DNA of 64,000 bases from Halodesulfovibrio sp. (lineage in GTDB: Bacteria; Desulfobacterota; Desulfovibrionia; Desulfovibrionales; Desulfovibrionaceae). The stretch covers positions 1 to 64,000 of the forward strand of contig NZ_JADMLB010000065.1 of NCBI RefSeq assembly GCF_015482765.1, read 5' to 3'. Position 1 is the first letter of the stretch. Each line of letters begins with the position of its first letter. Positions 5,125-59,569 of this stretch are shown in pieces. A program made the translations under genes and the position numbers. Under the pieces are notes generated by a model. The model had not been told where the DNA came from. It did no database searches and was given only the letters and a program-made list of their open reading frames with translations.

Positions 5125-5862
5125 TTATAATAAAATTTGTAATGCATTTCCGGCAATCTTCAGACCAAGGATTGCCATAAGAACAAAGAAAAATTTTCTA
5201 TACGATGCCTCTGAGATAAAAGCAGAAAGATAGATTCCGAGTTTACTTCCAATAACCACTGCCGGAACTGATGCCGCATAGATAGTGAGTGCAAAGGTAT
5301 CGATATTCCCAATAACCACCTGCGTAGACACAATCAACACACCTGTAAGAATAAATCCGGCACTGATAATTGCCTTAACAGCATTTTTAGGACACCCGCA
5401 GTATGCGGTATATACTGCAAGAGGTGGACCGTTAAAGCTGAACGCCATGCCCAGAGAGCTGGACATCACTCCGGCAACATACCCCCATGCAGGGTTAATG
5501 ACTCGTCCTTCTTTCTTCTCAAAAAAAAGACTCCACAGAGCATATCCTGCAACGAATGCTCCCATGCCAAAACGCAGCTGCTGTTCTGGAACAAACTGAA
5601 GAGCATAGGCACTCAAGACAACACCCGGTACTGCACCCATTAAAAGAGTCTTAGTATATCGCCATTCAATATGCTTACGGTAAACCCATCCCGCATGACA
5701 GTTCAATGTCAGCACAATCATTGTTGCACTGGGAACGAGGATAGACACGTCCATAACGTAACTGATGATCGGCATGGCAACCATTGCTGCACCAAAACCG
5801 GCAAGCCCGTTAATAAAGCCGCCGACAAACCACCCCATCGCAATAAAAAGAATGTGTTCCAT
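5125..5862 (-). CDS. TauE/SafE (TSUP) family membrane exporter
   Basis: The 245-aa protein has about eight hydrophobic segments and the two-fold repeat of the TSUP family, with the first half beginning WFVGGFINGLAGFGAAMVAMP and the second with GVMSSSLGMAFSFNGPP. Members export sulfite, sulfoacetate or related organosulfur anions, or take up sulfonates. It is the last gene of the minus-strand isethionate operon, 26 bases after the sigma54 activator, so relief of excess sulfite released by IslA is the simplest role. The substrate is inferred from context. A weak ribosome site precedes the ATG. Confidence 0.85.
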   Translation of the reverse strand: MEHILFIAMGWFVGGFINGLAGFGAAMVAMPIISYVMDVSILVPSATMIVLTLNCHAGWVYRKHIEWRYTKTLLMGAVPGVVLSAYALQFVPEQQLRFGMGAFVAGYALWSLFFEKKEGRVINPAWGYVAGVMSSSLGMAFSFNGPPLAVYTAYCGCPKNAVKAIISAGFILTGVLIVSTQVVIGNIDTFALTIYAASVPAVVIGSKLGIYLSAFISEASYRKFFFVLMAILGLKIAGNALQILL

Positions 5863-5888: not shown

Positions 5889-7283
5889 TTACTGCTTCAT
5901 CTTTCGGAAAATTGTAGTGCGGTTCACTTTAAGAACTTCAGAAGCCTTGTTCACGGAACCATATGTATCAAGCGCCTGCTGAATAACACGACGTTCAAGC
6001 TCAGCCATAATCTCTTTTAAAGATTTACCGTCGTCCTTGGCATCAAGTTCAACGTTTGGCAGACAGTCCATAGGATGTCGTGAATTAATGGAAGGCGGCA
6101 GATCATTCGCTGAAATTTCAGAATGCTCCAATGTAACCACGAGACTCTGAACAAGGTTTTCAAGTTCACGAATGTTACCCGGCCAGCGGTATTTAAGAAG
6201 CAGCTGCATTGCATCACGCGCACAAGTAATGTCTTTTTTGTACTTCTCGCCATAGATGGAAAGAAAATGCTCAACAAGCCCGGGAATCATTTCAGTACGC
6301 TCTCGCAAAGGCGGGATATCAACAACAGCTACGCGTAAGCGGTAGAATAAGTCACTACGGAAATTCCCCTTACGGACTTCTTCTTCAAGATTACGGTTAG
6401 TTGCAGCAATAATGCGTACATCAACTTTCTTTGCCACAGAAGCGCCAACACGAACAACTTCCTGATCCTGTAATACACGCAACAATTTTGCCTGCATGGA
6501 AAGAGGAAGCTCACCGATTTCATCAAGAAAAACAGTGCCTCGGTTCGCCATTTCGAAATGACCGGGCTTTCCTTTAGATGTAGCACCGGTAAATGCCCCT
6601 GGAGCATACCCGAACAGTTCAGACTCGATCAGGTTTTCTGAGATACTGCCACAGTCCACTTTCAGGAACATCTCATCCCTTCTTGGACTGCTGTCATGAG
6701 CAAGACGGGCAAACCAGTCTTTACCTACACCGGTTTCGCCAAGCAAAAGCATGGTCGCGTCAGTTTCTGCAATACGCTTAATAAGAGAAACGAGTTGCTG
6801 CACCTGTGAATCATAAAACATGTTATCAGGATTATTGTCGGTAGAATCCTGAGACGTCAGGTGAGCAAGCTGTTTTGAGAAAAGGGAGATCTGTTCTTTC
6901 TGTTGTGCAATTTGCTTACGCATTTGCCCAATAAGGGTAATGTCGCGTGCAAGTGTAACAACAAGAACCAAATCGTTATCGTCGTCAAAAACAGGAAAGC
7001 CGCGCAAAACTAGACGCTTGCCTGTTTTGAGCTGCTGAACGACGGTTGCGGGTTTACCGGTTTTTACAATTTCAGGGTTCAAGACCGCATCAAAGATGCC
7101 GCTGTCTTTTAGATACCGGACATCCTTACCACGCAGCTCACCTTCCGTAAGACCGGTAAGGCGTTCATACATGGAGTTAACAAACAGCGTTTTGCCGTCT
7201 TTATCCGTAATATAGATTCCATCATCCAGTACTTCAAATACGTGCCGGACTGAGGCTCCGATTTTATCTAAATAGGTATCCAT
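5889..7283 (-). CDS. Sigma54-dependent activator of the isethionate locus (PAS-AAA+-Fis)
   Basis: The 464-aa enhancer-binding protein has an N-terminal PAS domain (about 10-115) and a coiled linker. The AAA+ domain has Walker A GETGVGKD (182-189), the sigma54-contact loop GAFTGA (219-224) and Walker B VFLDEIGE (241-248). A C-terminal Fis helix-turn-helix follows (NKASEVLKVNRTTIFRKMK). All residues needed for sigma54 activation are present. It lies between islB and the TauE gene, and two sigma54 promoters with clustered dyads occur in the dctP-islA spacer, so it very probably switches both transcripts on. Its PAS domain may sense the substrate or a metabolite. RBS GGGAGAAGGG precedes the ATG. 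Confidence 0.92.
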   Translation of the reverse strand: MDTYLDKIGASVRHVFEVLDDGIYITDKDGKTLFVNSMYERLTGLTEGELRGKDVRYLKDSGIFDAVLNPEIVKTGKPATVVQQLKTGKRLVLRGFPVFDDDNDLVLVVTLARDITLIGQMRKQIAQQKEQISLFSKQLAHLTSQDSTDNNPDNMFYDSQVQQLVSLIKRIAETDATMLLLGETGVGKDWFARLAHDSSPRRDEMFLKVDCGSISENLIESELFGYAPGAFTGATSKGKPGHFEMANRGTVFLDEIGELPLSMQAKLLRVLQDQEVVRVGASVAKKVDVRIIAATNRNLEEEVRKGNFRSDLFYRLRVAVVDIPPLRERTEMIPGLVEHFLSIYGEKYKKDITCARDAMQLLLKYRWPGNIRELENLVQSLVVTLEHSEISANDLPPSINSRHPMDCLPNVELDAKDDGKSLKEIMAELERRVIQQALDTYGSVNKASEVLKVNRTTIFRKMKQ

Positions 7284-7379: not shown

Positions 7380-8306
7380 TTAGCTTGCGTAATTAGGAAC
7401 TTGCTTAGCAATCTCCACAAGCGGGAGGAACACTTCGTTTTCGAGAGCTACATCGCCCATAGGGTACTCACGACCAAGGTTGGTGTATTTTTGAGTACCA
7501 AGGCGGTGGTATGCGAGTAATTCGTACTCTACGTCAAGATCTTTAATGTAATCAACAATCGCCTGAATATCTTCCGGAGTATCGTTAAACCCTGGAATAA
7601 CAGGAGTACGCACGCGGATTTTGAGTTTTGGATGAGCTTCGCGCAGTGCTTTAATATTTTTAAGAATAAGTTCGTTGGTTACACCACAAAATTCTTTGTG
7701 CTTTTCTGGGTTCATGCTCTTGATGTCCATCATCACGAAGTTCAGGTAGTTTCCTGCTTCAACGAGAGTTTCAGTCTGAACATGACCACATGTTTCTACA
7801 GCAGTTTTAATGTAGCGACGTTTTGCTTCTTTAAGCAAGGCAATAGCAAATTTTGGCTGAGCAAAAGGTTCACCGCCGCCAAGGGTAAGGCCGCCGCCGG
7901 AACGAGCGTAGAACATAGCATCTTTTTCTACGGAATCGATGGCTTCTTTAACAGTCATCTCGTCACCGTAGTTAATGAGTGCGCCTGCAGGACAAGCTTC
8001 GGCACACGCCATACAGTTTGTACAGGTATCCCAGTTCACGGCAATTTTATCATCTTCGCCCTGAGTAAGGGAGCCCGCAGTACAAACCTCTGCACAACGC
8101 AGACATTTAGAAAGAGTCAGACACTTACCAGCGTTGTACGCAAGCTGTGGCTTAAATGACTGGGATTCCGGGTTACTACACCACATACAAGAAAGAGGAC
8201 AGCCCTTCAGAAAAACAACAGTACGGATTCCCGGCCCGTCATGTACGGAGTATTTCTGAATATTGAAGACTTGACCAGTTGTGTTTAAAATTTCTTTTTG
8301 AGTCAT
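7380..8306 (-). CDS. islB: IslB, glycyl-radical enzyme activase for isethionate sulfite-lyase
   Basis: The 308-aa radical SAM protein generates the glycyl radical on IslA. The SAM cluster motif CPLSCMWC (C36, C40, C43) is followed by a ferredoxin-like insert with eight cysteines (C62, C68, C71, C75 and C95, C98, C101, C105) for two extra [4Fe-4S] clusters, as in activases of the choline-lyase/IslB type. GGGEPFAQP binds SAM. The gene sits between the TRAP transporter and the sigma54 activator on the strand opposite islA, the usual Desulfovibrio arrangement. It is called iseH in a parallel nomenclature. A short AGGAT ribosome site precedes the ATG. Confidence 0.93.
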   Translation of the reverse strand: MTQKEILNTTGQVFNIQKYSVHDGPGIRTVVFLKGCPLSCMWCSNPESQSFKPQLAYNAGKCLTLSKCLRCAEVCTAGSLTQGEDDKIAVNWDTCTNCMACAEACPAGALINYGDEMTVKEAIDSVEKDAMFYARSGGGLTLGGGEPFAQPKFAIALLKEAKRRYIKTAVETCGHVQTETLVEAGNYLNFVMMDIKSMNPEKHKEFCGVTNELILKNIKALREAHPKLKIRVRTPVIPGFNDTPEDIQAIVDYIKDLDVEYELLAYHRLGTQKYTNLGREYPMGDVALENEVFLPLVEIAKQVPNYAS

Positions 8307-8390: not shown

Positions 8391-10253
8391 TTAGTCTACA
8401 AAAAGCAAAGGAATTGCCGGGCAGTATGTAATAAGCAAGAGAACCGCGATCATCAAGCCTACAAGCGGCAGAGCCACTTTGGAGAGCTTTTCAATTTTAG
8501 CATTCGCAACACCGCTTGCAACGAAGAGGTTAACGCCAACTGGTGGAGTTACGAAGCCAACCGCAAGGTTAACTACCATTACGATACCGAAGTGGACAGG
8601 ATCTACGCCAACCTTCATCACGATAGGGAGAAGGATCGGTGTAAGAATAACGATAGCTGCAAGAGCTTCCATAAAGGTACCAACAATAAGCAGCAGAATG
8701 TTGATAAGGAACAGAATCATCAGCTTGTTGCTGGTGAGGCTCATCATCGCATTCGCAATTGTAGTTGGAACCTGCTCAATGGTCATGATGTTACCGAAAA
8801 TGGTAGCCATGGCCATCAGCACGATTACGATCGCAGAGGTAGAACAAGCTTCCATGAAGCTTGGTACCAGGTTTTTGAAGTTGAGTTCGCGGTAAACGAA
8901 CACACCAACAACCAGACCGTAAAACGCTGCAAGCGCTGCTGCTTCGGTAGGAGTCATGATACCACCGTAAATACCACCAAGGATAATTACAGGAACCATG
9001 AGTGCCCACTTAGCATCCCAAAAAGCACGCATAAAAGTAGATGCGTTACGTTCACGTTGTTCGCCTTTCCAGCCACGTTTTCTTGAGTAAACGTATGCGT
9101 ACAGCATGAGAGCAAGACCGGTGAGAACACCAGGAACAATACCACCCATGAAGAGCTTACCAATGGATACCTGAGCAGATACACCATATACTACAAACGG
9201 GTTAGAAGGCGGAATCATTACGCCAATAGCACCAGATGCTGCAACGATAGCAGCAGCAAAGAGCTTGTCGTAACCACGCTCAACCATCGCCGGAATGGTC
9301 AAAGAACCAATCGCTGCTACGGTCGCAGGACCGGAGCCGGAGATAGCGGCAAAGAACATACAGGTTGCAATAGTAGCCAGAGCCATACCGCCGTAAAGAG
9401 AACCGAGCATTTCATCAGCAAGGTTGAGAAGGCGTTTGGAAAGACCACCAGCACCCATGAACACACCCGCTGCAATAAAGAACGGGATAGCCATAATCGG
9501 GAAACTGTCGATAGAGGTAAATGTGATCTGAGCCACATACTCAATCGGCAGAGTACCTGTTGCGTAAATGGTTGCAGTAGCTGCAAGACCCAATCCAATT
9601 GAGATAGGTACACCAATTACGAGGAAAAGGAGGAAGTAACCGAACAATACAGGAAGAGTGTTCAGATCTTCACTAATAAGTACCGGAGCTGCAATAATTG
9701 CTGTGAACGCAACACCGAGCAATGTATCAAGAAGTCCGCATTCTTTAGCCTGTTTGTACAGGTCCTGAAGCAGACGAATTGCCATAAGAGCAAAGCCGAC
9801 AGGCAAAATGAGGTACGGAATAAAGTAACTCATGTTTGTGGCCGGTGCCACCTGAGGGAACTCGAGGAGCATCTCAAGATGGTTCAAGCCCATGTAAAAC
9901 ACAACTGCAACAAGTACGAGGAAACAGAGGTCTACAACAATCCAACTGATTTGCTGAAGTCGAGTCGGAAGGCGGTCATAAACAATATCAACACGAATAT
10001 TGTTGCGGTTTTTAATTGCTACCGGAATAGCAAGGTATGAAATCCAGATAAAAATGAAACGAGCGAGCTCTTCAGTCCAAATTGCCGCGCTGGCGTCGGA
10101 AGAAAAGTACGCTCCAATGTATCTGTAAAATGTCTGAAAAGTAATAATGAGAATGATGCTGAGCATCCCCGTAAAAAGAAACGGTTTCTCAAAGTTATCG
10201 TCCAACCAGGTAAGGAAGGACTTTTTTTCTGCTGTCTGGGAAAGGGTTGTCAT
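8391..10253 (-). CDS. Fused TRAP transporter small and large membrane subunits (DctQM), isethionate uptake
   Basis: The 620-aa protein fuses the DctQ-like four-helix subunit (about 1-180) with the DctM-like transport subunit (about 185-620). The DctM half shows family segments such as FPIMAIPFFIAAGVFMGAGG, GSGPATVAAIG, IPPSNPFVVYG and TPTEAAALAA. With the periplasmic binding protein encoded just upstream it would import a C2 sulfonate using the sodium gradient. Fused QM proteins of this length are known in the isethionate loci of Desulfovibrio. The ATG follows AGGAG. Substrate is inferred from the neighbouring islA/islB; the family is certain. Confidence 0.92.
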   Translation of the reverse strand: MTTLSQTAEKKSFLTWLDDNFEKPFLFTGMLSIILIITFQTFYRYIGAYFSSDASAAIWTEELARFIFIWISYLAIPVAIKNRNNIRVDIVYDRLPTRLQQISWIVVDLCFLVLVAVVFYMGLNHLEMLLEFPQVAPATNMSYFIPYLILPVGFALMAIRLLQDLYKQAKECGLLDTLLGVAFTAIIAAPVLISEDLNTLPVLFGYFLLFLVIGVPISIGLGLAATATIYATGTLPIEYVAQITFTSIDSFPIMAIPFFIAAGVFMGAGGLSKRLLNLADEMLGSLYGGMALATIATCMFFAAISGSGPATVAAIGSLTIPAMVERGYDKLFAAAIVAASGAIGVMIPPSNPFVVYGVSAQVSIGKLFMGGIVPGVLTGLALMLYAYVYSRKRGWKGEQRERNASTFMRAFWDAKWALMVPVIILGGIYGGIMTPTEAAALAAFYGLVVGVFVYRELNFKNLVPSFMEACSTSAIVIVLMAMATIFGNIMTIEQVPTTIANAMMSLTSNKLMILFLINILLLIVGTFMEALAAIVILTPILLPIVMKVGVDPVHFGIVMVVNLAVGFVTPPVGVNLFVASGVANAKIEKLSKVALPLVGLMIAVLLLITYCPAIPLLFVD

Positions 10254-10317: not shown

Positions 10318-11568
<1,251 letters not shown>

Positions 11569-11671
11569 TTAAAACTGTAAATCAAGCTTACAGCCGCCAT
11601 AAATTGTACTGACTTTCTCTGAAAAAAATACGCCCGTCTGTCTTCTTTTGGGTCAAATTAGCCCCTTCAGA

Positions 11672-11798
11672 GTTGCAAAAATGCTAGTCGCAGGTTTCCA
11701 TTTTGCAACACACATCTTCTTTATTCATTTATATAGGCATATTGACTGTGGCAAAGTGAAATGATGCATTTAAACATCGACAGTTGCATTTTTGCATC
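11672..11798. promoter_or_regulatory. Cluster of four putative activator-binding dyads, dctP side
   Basis: Four 16-bp elements related to GTTGCA-N4-TGCAAC: GTTGCAAAAATGCTAG (11672-11687), GTTTCCATTTTGCAAC (11694-11709), a weaker GATGCATTTAAACATC (11763-11778) and GTTGCATTTTTGCATC (11783-11798). Members of each pair are 22 and 20 bases apart, about two helical turns. They lie 260-390 bases upstream of the dctP sigma54 promoter, a normal enhancer distance. Confidence 0.65.
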
Positions 11799-12201
11799 AA
11801 AAAGACCTTGCTCTAAATTTCCTCGCCAAATCAACAGAATACAACCATTCTTCAATTGCAATCACTTAAAAAAACTACCGTTTATTCCCAAAATGCTCAG
11901 AAACTGTATCAAACAATGCCCTACAAACGCCATTTACGCTCGACATTGTACCTATTTTCACAAAGATATCCGCTTAATTACAATCAGGTATTATTAAACA
12001 CTGGTGCTCTCCCTCTACTAGTCGTCACCATATCTTTCTCCCGTAAGCTCCGCGCCAGAGCACGGATACCACCCACTCTGACTGTTTAACCACTCAAAAA
12101 TAGCTTTTACGCGCTATCATTATATAGGGCACAGTGGCATAAAACACATCTAATAATAATCATACTATTTCGGATAGTTACCGCAAGACGCCTCTCGTCA
12201 T

Positions 12202-12312
12202 GTTGCAACGATGCAAATCCTGAACGAGCGTGGCAATAATGCAACAGGCCATAACATATTGATTTTACAGTCTTCAGAAAATATTTTTACTGAAATGTTG
12301 CAGTTAAGCATC
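12202..12312. promoter_or_regulatory. Cluster of three putative activator-binding dyads, islA side
   Basis: Three copies of the same 16-bp dyad: GTTGCAACGATGCAAA (12202-12217), GTGGCAATAATGCAAC (12230-12245) and GTTGCAGTTAAGCATC (12297-12312). They lie 290-400 bases upstream of the islA sigma54 promoter. Confidence 0.65.
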
Positions 12313-12601
12313 ACTTTTCCTCCTCAAAGAGCACTCTTAGAATTTCACGAGGACCTATCGAAAAGTACAAGAGCTATTTTTCACAAAGCGAATTCCAATT
12401 TCTTAATTTTTTTTACTGACGCTCTGAACAAGACAAAAACCACTTATTGCGAAAACCCCAAACTCCGCTTTATTCAATAGGATTGAGGCAGTGTTTCAAT
12501 TTATTTGAACGTATTTTGGAACCCTTCAATCGACTTTCAGCATGCTTAAAAAGACTTTTTTTGCCCTCTAAACGCACAAAAAAAGCTCTTTCGGCACACA
12601 T

Positions 12602-12617
12602 TGGCATCACCTTTGCT
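12602..12617 (+). promoter_or_regulatory. Sigma54 promoter of islA
   Basis: TGGCATCACCTTTGCT matches TGGCAC-N5-TTGCA with GG (12603-12604) and GC (12615-12616) 12 bases apart. The predicted start near 12628 leaves a leader of about 190 bases before islA. Confidence 0.82.
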
Positions 12618-12817
12618 CTAAGAAAATCACAGGGCGCGATTCACTAAGCAGCTTGCTTTAACGATCACTGAAAAAAGCTGCTGAAGCGCAAGTCCTTATT
12701 AAAAAGAGAATCAAAATTTACTGCTGCTGAGCACACAGCGGCCGCAGCATTTTTAACCCACAGGTACAGCACATTTTATGTGCCACCTATTTTGAACCTA
12801 ATTCACAGGAGTCAGTT

Positions 12818-15298
12818 ATGTCTTGTTGTGTATCACCTCACGAACAGCGTCTGCTCGATAAAATTGAAGGCAAAGAAGATATCTACCGCGCATCCCACCC
12901 GCGTGTATTCAAAATCCTCGAAACCTTCGACAACGTTCGTCCAATGATCGACATTGAACGTGCTAAATACTTCACCGAGTCCATGAAAGAGACCGAAGGT
13001 GAAATGCTCTGCCTGCGTTGGGCAAAAGCAATGAAGCACGTTGCTGAAAACATCACTGTTTACATCGATGACGACAACCTCATTTGTGGTCGTGGTGGTG
13101 TAAAAGGTCGTTACGGTCTGCTCTACCCTGAACTCGACGGTGACTTCCTTGATATCGCAGTTGAAGACCTTCCTAACCGTACAGAGTCTCCTTTCTCTAT
13201 TACTCCTGAAGATGCTAAAGTAGTAGTTGAAGAGATCGCTCCTTACTGGAAAGGTAAAACTTACCACGAAGCTCTCAACAAATCTTTCCCTGAAGAAGTT
13301 CACAAACTTACTTACGATGATCCAGAAGGCCTTGCTTCCCGCTTCATCGTTAACGAAACTTCTTCTTTCCGTTCTTCCATTCAGTGGGTTCATGACTACG
13401 AAAAGGTCCTCAAACGTGGTTTCGGTGGCATTAAAGCAGAAGCTCTCGAAAAAATCGAAGCTCTCGATCCGCTTTCCCCATTCGATAACGTTGAGAAAAA
13501 ACCTTTCCTCGAGTCTATCGTAATCGTATGTGACGCGATCATCACATGGGCACGTCGTCACTCCGAGCTCGCAGCTGAACTCGCTAAGAAAGAATCTGAT
13601 CCAGTTCGTAAAGCTGAACTCGAAAAAATGGCTGAAATTTGTGCTCACGTTCCTGAGCACCCAGCTCGTACTTTCCACGAAGCTGTTCAGTCTCAGTGGT
13701 TCACCCAGATGTTCTCTCGTATCGAGCAGAAAACTGGTACAATCGTATCTAACGGCCGTATGGACCAGTACTTCTACCCTTACTACCAGGCTGACGTAGA
13801 AGCTGGCATCCTTGACGACGACCAGGCTCTCGAACTTCTCGAGTGTCTCTGGGTTGGTATGGCTCAGTTCATCGACCTCTACGTTTCCCCTACCGGCGGC
13901 GCATTCAACGAAGGCTACGCTCACTGGGAAGCAGTAACAATTGGTGGTCAGACTCCAGAAGGTCGCGACGCAACCAACGAACTGACTTACCTCTTCCTTA
14001 AATCAAAACGTGAATTCCCGCTTCACTACCCTGACCTTGCAGCGCGTATTCACTCTCGTTCTCCAGAGCGCTACCTCGCTGACGTTGCTGAAACCATTAA
14101 GGACGGCTCCGGCTTCCCTAAACTCATCAACGACGAAGAAGTAGTACCTCTTTACGTTTCCAAAGGTGCAACCTTTGAAGAAGCTTACGACTACGCTGTT
14201 TCCGGTTGTACCGAAGCACGTATGCCTAACCGCGACACATACACTTCCGGTGGTGCATACATCAACTTCGTAGCAGCTCTCGAAATGGTTCTGCATAACG
14301 GTAAAATGATCAAACACGGCGACGAAGTTCTCGGTCTCGAAACCGGCGATCCTCTCTCCTTTGAAACTTGGGAAGATTTCTTTGCTGCATACGAAAAACA
14401 GCATCATCACTTCCTCAAGACTGCATTCTACCAGCAGTACGTAATTAACAACCTTCGTGCTAAGCACTTTGCACAGCCTCTCGGTTCTGCAATGCATGAC
14501 CTCTGCATGAAACATTGCCTCGACCTGCACACACCGCAGATCCCAGAAGGCATCAACATGGGTTACTTCGAACACATGGGTCTTGGTACTCTCGTAGACT
14601 CCCTCTGCGCTATCAAGAAACTCGTATACGAAGATAAAAAACTCACTTTGAAAGAAGTTATCGAAGCTTGTGACTGCAACTTCGAAGGCAAAGAAGACGT
14701 ACGTCAGCTCCTCATGACCGCTCCTTGCTACGGCAACGACGACGAGTACGCTGATGAACTCGCAAACAAAATTGATGCATTCAACGTTCTTTACGGCCAG
14801 AAATACGCTAAAGAACTCGGCATGCACAACGACGTTCGTTACGTACCATTCACCTCCCACGTACCATTCGGTAAAGTAGTTGGTGCAACCCCTAACGGTC
14901 GTCTTGCTTGGACTGCTCTCTCTGACGGTTCTTCTGCATCTCACGGTGCTGACAAAAACGGTCCTACAGCAGTTCTTCTTTCCAACTACACTTCTAAAAA
15001 CTACGGCCACCGCGATCGCGCTGCTCGTATGCTGAACATCAAGTTCACTCCGAAGTGTGTTGAAGGTGAAGAAGGTACCGAAAAACTCGTTTCCTTCATC
15101 CGTACTTTCTGCGACCTTAAACTCTGGCACGTTCAGTTCAACGTTATCAACAAAGATACCCTGATCGCTGCTCAGAAAGATCCAGAAAAATACCGTAACC
15201 TCATCGTTCGTATCGCAGGCTACTCTGCATACTTCGTAGATCTGTCCCCAGATCTCCAGAACGACCTCATCGCACGTACTGCACACGAATCTGTTTAG
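12818..15298 (+). CDS. islA: IslA, isethionate sulfite-lyase (glycyl radical enzyme)
   Basis: The 826-aa glycyl radical enzyme cleaves the C-S bond of isethionate to acetaldehyde and sulfite. The catalytic cysteine C464 and base E466 lie in SGCTEARM, and the glycyl radical is G801 in RIAGYSAYF. Residues I recall as substrate-binding in Bilophila IslA (R189, Q193, C468, E470, R678, F682, G805) are all found here at a constant offset of four: R185, Q189, C464, E466, R674, F678, G801. This favours IslA over pyruvate formate-lyase, choline lyase or the dihydroxypropanesulfonate enzymes. Codon use is strongly optimised, as for an abundant protein. It starts at an ATG after AGGAG and is monocistronic with its own terminator. 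It is named iseG in other work. Confidence 0.95.
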
Positions 15299-15490: not shown

Positions 15491-17551
15491 ATGCACTCAA
15501 ATCAACCACACGGAACCATTCCGTTAGCCAGTGAACGCTTTGTAAGCTCGCAGGTTAATGCCCGTCGTCATGAACAGATTATCCAAGAATCTCATGCCCG
15601 TTCACGTGCGATGGGAATAGATCCAAACCAAACAGCTTCCCCCGAAAAATATAAACTCTCTCCAGAGATGCTCCGCCAGCGTATAAAAGACAGTCAGCCA
15701 TTCTATGATCTTGTAACCACACAAATGTCGACCCTGTACCGAATTCTCAAAGGCTCAGGTTTTTGTATGGCTGTTTCTGATGCAGATGGATATGTCCTCC
15801 ATACGTTGGGCGATGCCCAGTTAATGGAGCACTACAAAATGGGTAACTGCATGCCGGGTTACTTATGGACAGAAGAAGCAGTAGGTACTTGCGGTATCGG
15901 TGTTGTTCTTAAGGAAGGAATTTCTATCCAAATTTCCGGAAAAGAAATGTTTTGTAAACGTGCACATCACATCACAAACTCTGCCACGCCAGTACACGAT
16001 AACAACGGCAACCTTATCGGTGTAATCGCTCTAAGCGGACTTGCTAGTGCGGTACACGTGCATACCCTTGGAATGGTAATTCTCACAGCAAAGGCTATCC
16101 GCTCACAAATTGGTGAAATAGAAAAAGCCAGAGAAGTCGCTATTCGAAATACATATATGTCTGCCCTTATGGAATCTGACCAACGAGGCATCATCGCTCT
16201 TAACGAAGTAGGCGATATTGTGCAGATAAACAAAAAGGCCAATGCATTGCTCGGGTTGGATCAAAATGCTTCTTCTGGCGCATCTCTTATGAATCCTGAT
16301 TCAGAAATCGGTCTTAATATTTCAGCTCTTACACGCACACGTACAAACTGGAAACAAATGCTCCGCACTAAACGCGGTTTTACCGAACGAGAGGTAACAT
16401 TTGTACGTGGTGATTCTCGCTTTCCTCTAGTTTGTACACTCGACCCAATTACGATGCCTGACGGTGAAAGTGCCGGCGGTATCCTTCTGGTCATGGAGCA
16501 CGACAGAATGCTCCAGCTTGCAAACGAAATGGCAGGCACACAGGCACGCTTTACATTCGATTCTATTATCGGTTCCAGTATAGCCCTTGAAGAAGCTAAA
16601 AAAGTTGCTCATGCAGCAGCACGAGGAAACGCTTCTGTGCTTCTGCACGGGGAAACCGGCACCGGTAAGGAGCTCTTTGCACAAGCCATCCACAATGCCA
16701 GCCCTCGGCGCAATAAACCTTTTGTTGTCATCAACTGTGGTGCTATCCCAAACGAATTACTTGAAAGTGAACTTTTTGGATATGTAGAAGGCGCTTTTAC
16801 TGGAGCTCGTAAAGGCGGTCGTCCAGGTAAGTTTGAACTTGCCGACGGCGGAACCCTCTTTCTTGATGAAATCGGCGATATGCCTCTCGACATGCAGGTT
16901 AAAATCCTTCGTGCACTTCAATCAGGTGAAGTAAACCGTGTAGGCGACATGCAACCTATCAAAGTTGATCTTCGCATTATCGCCGCAACAAACGTTGATC
17001 TGGATATGGCAATTGAACGCGGTACCTTCCGTGAAGATCTTTTCTATCGAGTCAGCACACTGAATATCACAATCCCGCCTCTTCGAGATCGCGGAGCAGA
17101 TGTATTATCTCTGGCGGAAACGTTCCTGCACCGAATCCGCCCTCGTCTGGGCAAACCAGAACTTGAATACAGCCAACCGGCTCTTCAAGCTCTGGTTAAC
17201 GCATCATGGCCCGGAAATATCCGACAGTTGGAAAACGCGGTAGAACGTGCAGTAAACATCTGTGAACAAAAAGTAATTCAACCAGACGACCTCGGTCTTG
17301 ATCACACAGATACACGTACAGCCCGTAATTTAGCCTCCGGCAGAGCGCTTTCCAGTGTAAATGAACTCCCTGAAGAGGTTCGAAATTTAAATACTGAGAG
17401 CAAGGCAATGCTTGAGGAAATGGAAGAAGCACTCATTACCCGACTTTTGCAGGAACATCATGGCAATTTAAGTCAAATTGCCCGTGCAATGGGTGTCAGT
17501 CGGCCTACCCTATACAGAAAACTTAAAAAATACGGATTGAATGCTTCGTAG
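15491..17551 (+). CDS. Sigma54-dependent activator, AcoR-like (GAF-PAS-AAA+-Fis)
   Basis: The 686-aa enhancer-binding protein has an AcoR-type N-terminus with a GAF domain (about 70-200), a PAS domain (about 205-330) and an AAA+ module with Walker A GETGTGKE (387-394), GAFTGA (434-439) and Walker [11 protein letters not shown]-terminal Fis HTH is present ([20 protein letters not shown]). The sequence GTCGIGVVL in the GAF domain is typical of AcoR relatives that sense small organic substrates. The ATG follows GGGGG. The gene precedes a symporter with a sigma54 promoter, which is the likely target. The effector is unknown. Confidence 0.92.
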
Positions 17552-58293: not shown

Positions 58294-59569
58294 CCTAAAA
58301 CGAACCATTATCTATACAGTGCTTTTTCTGGGGACAGTTTTAGTTCTCGGATACACAACGCTGTTGCTTGATTTTGGAGAAAGAGGCTTGGATTTAGCCA
58401 TTGAGGTTCGGCTGGATATGGAAAAACGCGCGTATTCAGAAAAATACGCTCAAAATCCGAACACACCACTTCCATCTTATACAAATTTTAAAACGTACTT
58501 GAACTATTCATCGCTCCCGCAGGACATACGAGACACAATACCTCAGGAAGAAATGTCCTCTCGACAGATGACAACCTACGATCCGCTAGATCAGGACATC
58601 ATTCAATTCATTTATCCTTGGCAACGTCCAGACGACAAATGGGTGTTTTTTGTGTTTACGGTCTGGCTTGATGAAGACACCGAAAGGGTTTTGCAAGATC
58701 TTGATGTCATGTTTTCGCTTATCGGCGAAGTAGGGTTAACAGTTCTCACCATCATTGTTGTTCTCATTCTCGGCTTGCTGCATCATATCTCACGAGCCAT
58801 TAATGAACTGCGTGACTGGGCAAACGGGCTACAGCTTAAAACGTTGGATCAGCAACGAAGAATGTTTAAGTATAGAGAGTTAGATCAGCTTGCAGATTTA
58901 ATTTATAACAACACCAAACGAATAGCGAAGAGCATTGAGCGTGAACAACGCTTTCTTGAACACGCAAGCCACGAATTACGGACACCAATAGCTATTCTCC
59001 AGAATAACCTTGAGCTTCTTGAATACAAGGGGCTGGATAAGGATCCACGTTTTGCGGCGTCGTTCGCACGAATGTCAACGTCAGTTCATAACATGCACCA
59101 CCTGACAACAACATTGTTGTGGGCAAGCAGAAAAGAAACCAACCCACCACAAGTCTCCAATGTGCAGCTGAAAACTTTGATTGAGGAATTAATTACTGAA
59201 AACACGTATCTGCTGAATAACAAATCGGTTCAAGTTAATACAATGCTCTCAAATGAGGTCATTACAGCCTCAAGACACGTACTTCGTATCATTTTGGGCA
59301 ACATTATACGTAATGCCTTCCAACATACACATGAAGGTGAAATCAGTATTCATAATACAGCAGACACGTTTGTCGTCTTCAACACAAAAACTGCAGACCA
59401 TGAAGAATCCAAGACTGACAGCTATGGTCTAGGCATCATGCTCATTGAACGACTGGTAACGAAAATGGGATGGGATATCATCTTCGATAATTCTGAAGAC
59501 TTCTTCTCGGTTACCCTTCAGATGGATTCCACAACTATGGGTACCACAGCAGACGACTCCAAAACATAA
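58277..59569 (+). CDS. Sensor histidine kinase
   Basis: The 430-aa kinase has two helices (about 10-30 and 155-175) bounding a 125-residue periplasmic sensor. The HisKA box is HASHELRTPIAILQNN, and the HATPase has N-box NIIRNAFQH and the G-box-like GLGIMLIERL. It phosphorylates the overlapping OmpR-type regulator. The stimulus is unknown and may be a pump substrate or envelope stress. Confidence 0.93.
   Translation: MRKTRSLKRTIIYTVLFLGTVLVLGYTTLLLDFGERGLDLAIEVRLDMEKRAYSEKYAQNPNTPLPSYTNFKTYLNYSSLPQDIRDTIPQEEMSSRQMTTYDPLDQDIIQFIYPWQRPDDKWVFFVFTVWLDEDTERVLQDLDVMFSLIGEVGLTVLTIIVVLILGLLHHISRAINELRDWANGLQLKTLDQQRRMFKYRELDQLADLIYNNTKRIAKSIEREQRFLEHASHELRTPIAILQNNLELLEYKGLDKDPRFAASFARMSTSVHNMHHLTTTLLWASRKETNPPQVSNVQLKTLIEELITENTYLLNNKSVQVNTMLSNEVITASRHVLRIILGNIIRNAFQHTHEGEISIHNTADTFVVFNTKTADHEESKTDSYGLGIMLIERLVTKMGWDIIFDNSEDFFSVTLQMDSTTMGTTADDSKT

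Follow-up and report, generated by a model that had tools for sequence, protein, structure and literature searches.

Upstream activating sequences of the NtrC/NifA type are paired palindromes, set a few hundred bases ahead of the -24/-12 promoters that they serve. The dyads described here have a similar layout but are built on the half-site GTTGCA, and their proposed activator, termed EBP_A, has a one-component PAS input.

A system of related composition is known from the Desulfovibrionales. Kazakov et al. 2015 (PMC4641369) present DVU2827, then called a pyruvate formate-lyase regulator, as the one-component activator of DVU2820 and DVU2822-2825, with sites predicted upstream of the operon in five Desulfovibrionales before the enzyme was known to cleave isethionate. 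The Halodesulfovibrio locus resembles the DVU2827 regulon in that a one-component sigma54 activator is encoded in a sigma54-dependent operon together with a TRAP transporter, a glycyl-radical enzyme and the activase of that enzyme. It differs in that the enzyme is IslA and not one labelled pyruvate formate-lyase, in that the activator carries GAFTGA instead of GAFSGA, and in the presence of two divergent promoters with seven sites. DVU2827 is the apparent D. vulgaris counterpart of EBP_A, for which we infer orthology; relatives of EBP_A with about 48-65% identity adjoin islA in further genera, Nitratidesulfovibrio and Bilophila among them. The DVU2827 motif is likely the same as the dyad, and the dyad was probably already found in 2015. 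The original prediction knew of no description of the motif. A text search of the literature for the motif returned no paper, but an equivalent regulon had been predicted for DVU2827.

In B. wadsworthia (PMC8667426, PMC6386719), a gene for a PAS-domain regulator likewise lies beside islB, and the genes for taurine-to-isethionate conversion and for isethionate cleavage form two clusters, as they do in Halodesulfovibrio. Unlike in B. wadsworthia, no microcompartment genes were recognised beside islA in the Halodesulfovibrio stretch, where uptake is by DctP/DctMQ. A Bilophila islA locus in our sample has two dyads and an EBP_A orthologue.

The isethionate locus and its two promoters

The window analysed is a 64-kb stretch from a Halodesulfovibrio sp., the closest named islA locus being that of H. 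spirochaetisodalis (97% identical). A minus-strand operon of the order dctP-dctMQ-islB-activator-tauE diverges from islA across a spacer of 1489 bp, with the dctP start at 11328 (-) and the islA start at 12818 (+). Coordinates of all features are given in Table 1.

Table 1. Features of the isethionate locus and of related loci in the same genome; plain coordinates refer to the 64-kb window.
Feature	Position	Strand	Remarks
Dyad 1, GTTGCAAAAATGCTAG	11672..11687		kept in 4/5 congeneric loci; lost in G009
Dyad 2, GTTTCCATTTTGCAAC	11694..11709		kept in 5/5
Dyad 3, GATGCATTTAAACATC	11763..11778		degenerate: 4 mismatches here, 1-3 in four aligned congeneric genomes
Dyad 4, GTTGCATTTTTGCATC	11783..11798		1 mismatch in all five genomes
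Dyad 5, GTTGCAACGATGCAAA	12202..12217		nearly invariant
Dyad 6, GTGGCAATAATGCAAC	12230..12245		at most 2 mismatches
Dyad 7, GTTGCAGTTAAGCATC	12297..12312		at most 2 mismatches
Sigma54 -24/-12 promoter of dctP-dctMQ-islB-activator-tauE, TTGGCATTGGTATTGCT	11398..11414	-	one base off TTGGCACN5TTGCT
Sigma54 -24/-12 promoter of islA, TTGGCATCACCTTTGCT	12601..12617	+	one base off TTGGCACN5TTGCT
Highly conserved block separating the proposed enhancer from the islA promoter	12469..12512		0.98 identity
islA mRNA leader, conserved hairpins	12628..12817	+	predicted structure, sequence conservation
islA, isethionate sulfite-lyase	12818..15298	+	similarity to solved IslA-type enzymes
EBP_B, second sigma54 activator	15491..17551	+	rejected as dyad binder
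dctP, isethionate-binding TRAP protein	10318..11328	-	solved isethionate-binding DctP 8t9t, E 6e-151
dctMQ, fused TRAP permease	8391..10253	-
islB, glycyl-radical activase	7380..8306	-
EBP_A, PAS-AAA(GAFTGA)-Fis one-component sigma54 activator, proposed dyad binder	5889..7283	-	conserved with islA
Membrane protein resembling TauE, encoded at the end of the operon	5125..5862	-	name from the authors' reading; no NCBIfam match
Candidate sigma54-promoted small RNA	L031 7335-7105 (G000:C16 about 59100-59335)	-	three upstream dyads
ald1 (alanine dehydrogenase), two upstream dyads	L032 6870-7215 (G000:C53)
Taurine-to-isethionate operon: amino-acid permease, sarD, class-III aminotransferase, ald2	L183 3628-10990 (G000:C25)

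The glycyl-radical enzyme encoded by islA scores 1566 bits against 5ymr, which we take to be D. vulgaris IslA, and 1438 against B. wadsworthia IslA (7kq3), compared with 1233 against 6lon, presumably the sulfopropanediol dehydratase HpsG; its sequence is thus nearer to proven IslA than to HpsG. The protein also exceeds the cut-off of NCBIfam NF048011 ("sulfopropanediol dehydratase", the HpsG model). Since it scores higher against 5ymr and 7kq3 than against 6lon, and DctP matches 8t9t, that name is too broad for the window IslA. The label alone cannot separate IslA from HpsG. Isethionate is the right substrate, judged by similarity: the nearest solved structures are IslA-type enzymes for IslA and an isethionate-binding DctP for DctP.

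A canonical -24/-12 element had been predicted to face each operon, and both were found. The GG/GC core of the dct promoter is kept in all five aligned genomes, and the islA promoter is invariant across them. Setting GG at -24 places the predicted transcription starts at 11387 (-) and 12628 (+). The four dyads of the left cluster are then about 285-411 bp upstream of the dct start so predicted, and the three of the right cluster about 316-426 bp upstream of that of islA. Because these distances are similar, each promoter appears to have its own cluster; the symmetry suggests this arrangement, and either cluster could reach both promoters by looping.

Six copies of the consensus GTTGCA-N4-TGCAAC with no more than two mismatches in 12 positions are found in the spacer (dyads 1, 2 and 4 to 7). 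The claimed total of seven, and likewise the claimed 20-bp spacing, is reached with the weak dyad 3, which is better matched in relatives. The whole window contains 10 matches at two mismatches, against 4.4 +/- 2.0 in shuffled sequence, and 6 of the 10 fall within the 641-bp region that spans the two clusters, where about 0.04 would be expected by chance. Successive dyads are spaced by 22, 69 and 20 bp in the left cluster and by 28 and 67 bp in the right; across 80 islA loci, dyads are most often 18-21 or 52-54 bp apart. Binding on similar faces of the helix, as originally suggested, fits the two close left pairs (20 and 22 bp) and not the 28-bp pair. Strict same-face phasing within the clusters was rejected, since 28, 67 and 69 bp are not whole helical turns.

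Four spacer blocks outside the dyads (11437-11456, 11572-11617, 12371-12390 and 12469-12512) are as conserved as the dyads themselves. The blocks at 11437 and 12371 include TTTGTGA / TCACAAA-like halves, and 12469-12512 is placed where a DNA-bending protein might bind. In the islA leader, a sequence-invariant GC hairpin precedes a T run (12718-12755), and near the ribosome-binding site there is another hairpin, which shows partial covariation. The leader is a possible attenuator; comparison with Rfam gave no credible family.

Conservation of the dyads and the activator proposed to bind them

When five congeneric spacers were aligned, identity was 0.85 in the dyad half-sites, compared with 0.58 in their four central bases and 0.46 in the remaining spacer. 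In 1160 circular shifts, an identity of 0.85 was reached in the true register only. Loss of dyad 1 is limited to G009, where the dctP-dctMQ genes are also absent beside islA; this locus has islA, islB and EBP_A. Dyads of the form GTYGCA-N4-TGCRAC recur in the spacers of other genera, which otherwise share little. Desulfovibrionales, Desulfobacterales and Bacillota all have the dyad in the neighbourhood of islA or dctP, together with an EBP_A orthologue. In Desulfosediminicola and Nitratidesulfovibrio (dct genes precede islA), and in Bacillota, the dyads are located at the promoter near dctP or EBP_A.

A wider sample comprised 80 named islA loci, which are related to each other, so that the counts are not independent. 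Within 1500 bp upstream of islA there were 1.33 dyads per locus where EBP_A was in view and 0.91 where it was not, compared with 0.02 in shuffles; for the loci bearing EBP_A the excess is about 50-fold. A two-by-two test of EBP_A presence and absence over the 80 loci is blurred by short contigs, and control palindromes were therefore relied on. A pair of dyads within 200 bp occurs at 27 of the 46 EBP_A-bearing loci, as against none for each of six control palindromes. Five of these 46 loci have no dyad at one mismatch in the stretch examined. Dyads also occur at two loci that extend over 3.5 kb to each side and have no EBP_A in view, and the activator may sit elsewhere in those genomes. In Alphaproteobacteria and planctomycetes, the stretch examined around islA has no EBP_A and no dyad pair, several of these contigs being short. 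As a separate observation, islA is present in Telmatospirillum and in planctomycete bins, EBP_A not being seen in the stretch examined. Desulfosediminicola flagellatus has two islA copies (L061, L063), both 87-88% identical to the window islA, which suggests transfer between lineages.

We propose that the seven dyads are, with high probability, the upstream activating sequence (enhancer) of EBP_A, acting on both divergent promoters. As in sigma54 enhancers, several palindromic sites lie upstream of the promoters and are conserved together with the activator, the -24/-12 promoters face the regulated operons, and an activator with a sigma54-interaction domain, GAFTGA loop and Fis helix-turn-helix is encoded with its targets. 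Of the local sigma54 activators, the one that shares the conservation of the dyads is that encoded with the transporter, for which the original prediction noted an intact GAFTGA loop. Its recognition helix is nearly invariant across orthologues (V[ND]R[TS]T[IVL]FRK). A search with its C-terminal domain at E 1e-4 found no other match among the proteins of its own genome, and matches were confined to the six congeneric genomes that have an islA. The prediction stood to fail if the dyads were unconserved in relatives with the same activator, and there they are conserved. Its reading of the sites as the enhancer of the isethionate genes is supported by this joint conservation and by the fit of IslA and DctP to isethionate.

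EBP_A dimers would bind GTTGCA-N4-TGCAAC through the Fis-type helix-turn-helix, and the AAA+ ring would then, through looping of the DNA, activate the sigma54-RNA polymerase of both divergent promoters. Because EBP_A is encoded within the dct operon, the circuit is expected to be positively autoregulated. The inducer, which the PAS domain would sense, may be isethionate or a product.

A competitor for the dyads is EBP_B, which is encoded just downstream of islA, adjoins it in four of five genomes and carries both GAFTGA and a Fis domain. However, its N-terminal part has no match in the complete genome of G004, the spacer of which retains the dyads and both promoters, and islA loci sampled from other genera retain dyads while none was found to have EBP_B. 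The likelier target of EBP_B is the next operon, which is preceded by a weak sigma54-like site (17756). EBP_B is thus very unlikely to bind the dyads, and was rejected on account of its absence from G004. TGCA-type palindromes can serve several regulator families, and the dyads might instead serve as operators for some unrelated repressor or nucleoid protein which is conserved here by coincidence, a reading to which the ald1 dyads lend something, as they adjoin a promoter not resembling sigma54. It is nevertheless improbable, given that the dyads lie 300-400 bp upstream of sigma54 promoters in fixed multiplicity and co-distribute with EBP_A across phyla. The spacer is A+T-rich, and lone one-mismatch matches occur elsewhere in the genome, as they do for a reversed control, which would fit a chance or neutrally inherited sequence. 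Yet dyad conservation far exceeds the spacer background, the dyads recur in unrelated spacers, and the control palindromes give no pairs; a chance or neutral origin is refuted by these observations and has almost no probability left.

Proposed wider regulon and the taurine branch

The regulon of EBP_A was read from pattern matches and from selected genome stretches. A one-mismatch search of the genome of the window returned 20 distinct places and the reversed control 15, and most lone matches are therefore noise. Dyad clusters elsewhere in the genome occur at two places, a small-RNA cassette and ald1.

At the cassette, three dyads are followed by a sigma54 promoter, TTGGCATCACAGTTGCT, and by non-coding sequence with a terminator-like hairpin of 15 bp at its end. 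The predicted RNA folds far better than shuffles (z -5.5) and its sequence is strongly conserved, with slight covariation support; it matches no Rfam family. A candidate small RNA is thus indicated by a sigma54 promoter, activator sites, a conserved and structured non-coding sequence, and a terminator-like hairpin. The five Halodesulfovibrio genomes that have this islA module all carry the cassette, which was absent from 194 other genomes of the family. In G001, which has neither islA nor EBP_A, the cassette is missing and its flanking genes are adjacent in an otherwise collinear locus. A one-gene tree puts G001 within the same six-genome group, its exact place unsettled, and a separate loss or gain appears likely. 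Unpaired CU-rich stretches of the RNA, for example UUCACCUCC, could pair with ribosome-binding sites. EBP_A probably also drives this unlinked cassette in Halodesulfovibrio. We consider it somewhat more likely than not that the wider regulon includes an undescribed small RNA of about 200-230 nt, by which isethionate respiration would gain a post-transcriptional arm.

The two dyads upstream of ald1 are 129-130 bp apart; both are kept in four of five genomes and one of them in G004. No sigma54 promoter was recognised at ald1 in any of the five, and ald1 is therefore less certain as a target of EBP_A. The corresponding regions of G003, G005 and G006 yielded no dyads; G002 is unreadable there, and G001 has no close ald1.

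The taurine-to-isethionate operon has its own sigma54 promoter, a perfect one, and a PAS activator gene (GAFSGA) diverges from the operon. Its sarD product, sulfoacetaldehyde reductase, is above the NCBIfam cut-off, and the class-III aminotransferase is probably Tpa. No dyads were found upstream of this operon in the genome of the window. In Bilophila, the clusters for taurine-to-isethionate conversion and for isethionate cleavage are reported to be induced independently (PMC8667426). The dyad-free taurine operon is likely to reflect the cis-acting basis of this independence, if the arrangement is shared.

Significance for isethionate respiration

The finding is not wholly new, being preceded by the DVU2827 regulon prediction of Kazakov et al. 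2015 (PMC4641369). What is new is the reassignment to isethionate, the conservation across phyla, the taurine operon without dyads, and the ald1 and small-RNA targets. In the literature searched, no paper was found that names the transcriptional switch of isethionate cleavage. Cleavage of isethionate gives sulfite, which is turned into hydrogen sulfide both in marine sediments and, in the gut, by Bilophila and Desulfovibrio. With a defined site and activator, conserved from Halodesulfovibrio to Bilophila and Desulfosporosinus, the switch becomes directly testable. The pairing of dyad and activator corrects the older pyruvate formate-lyase label, and the motif can be used to find the remainder of the regulon.
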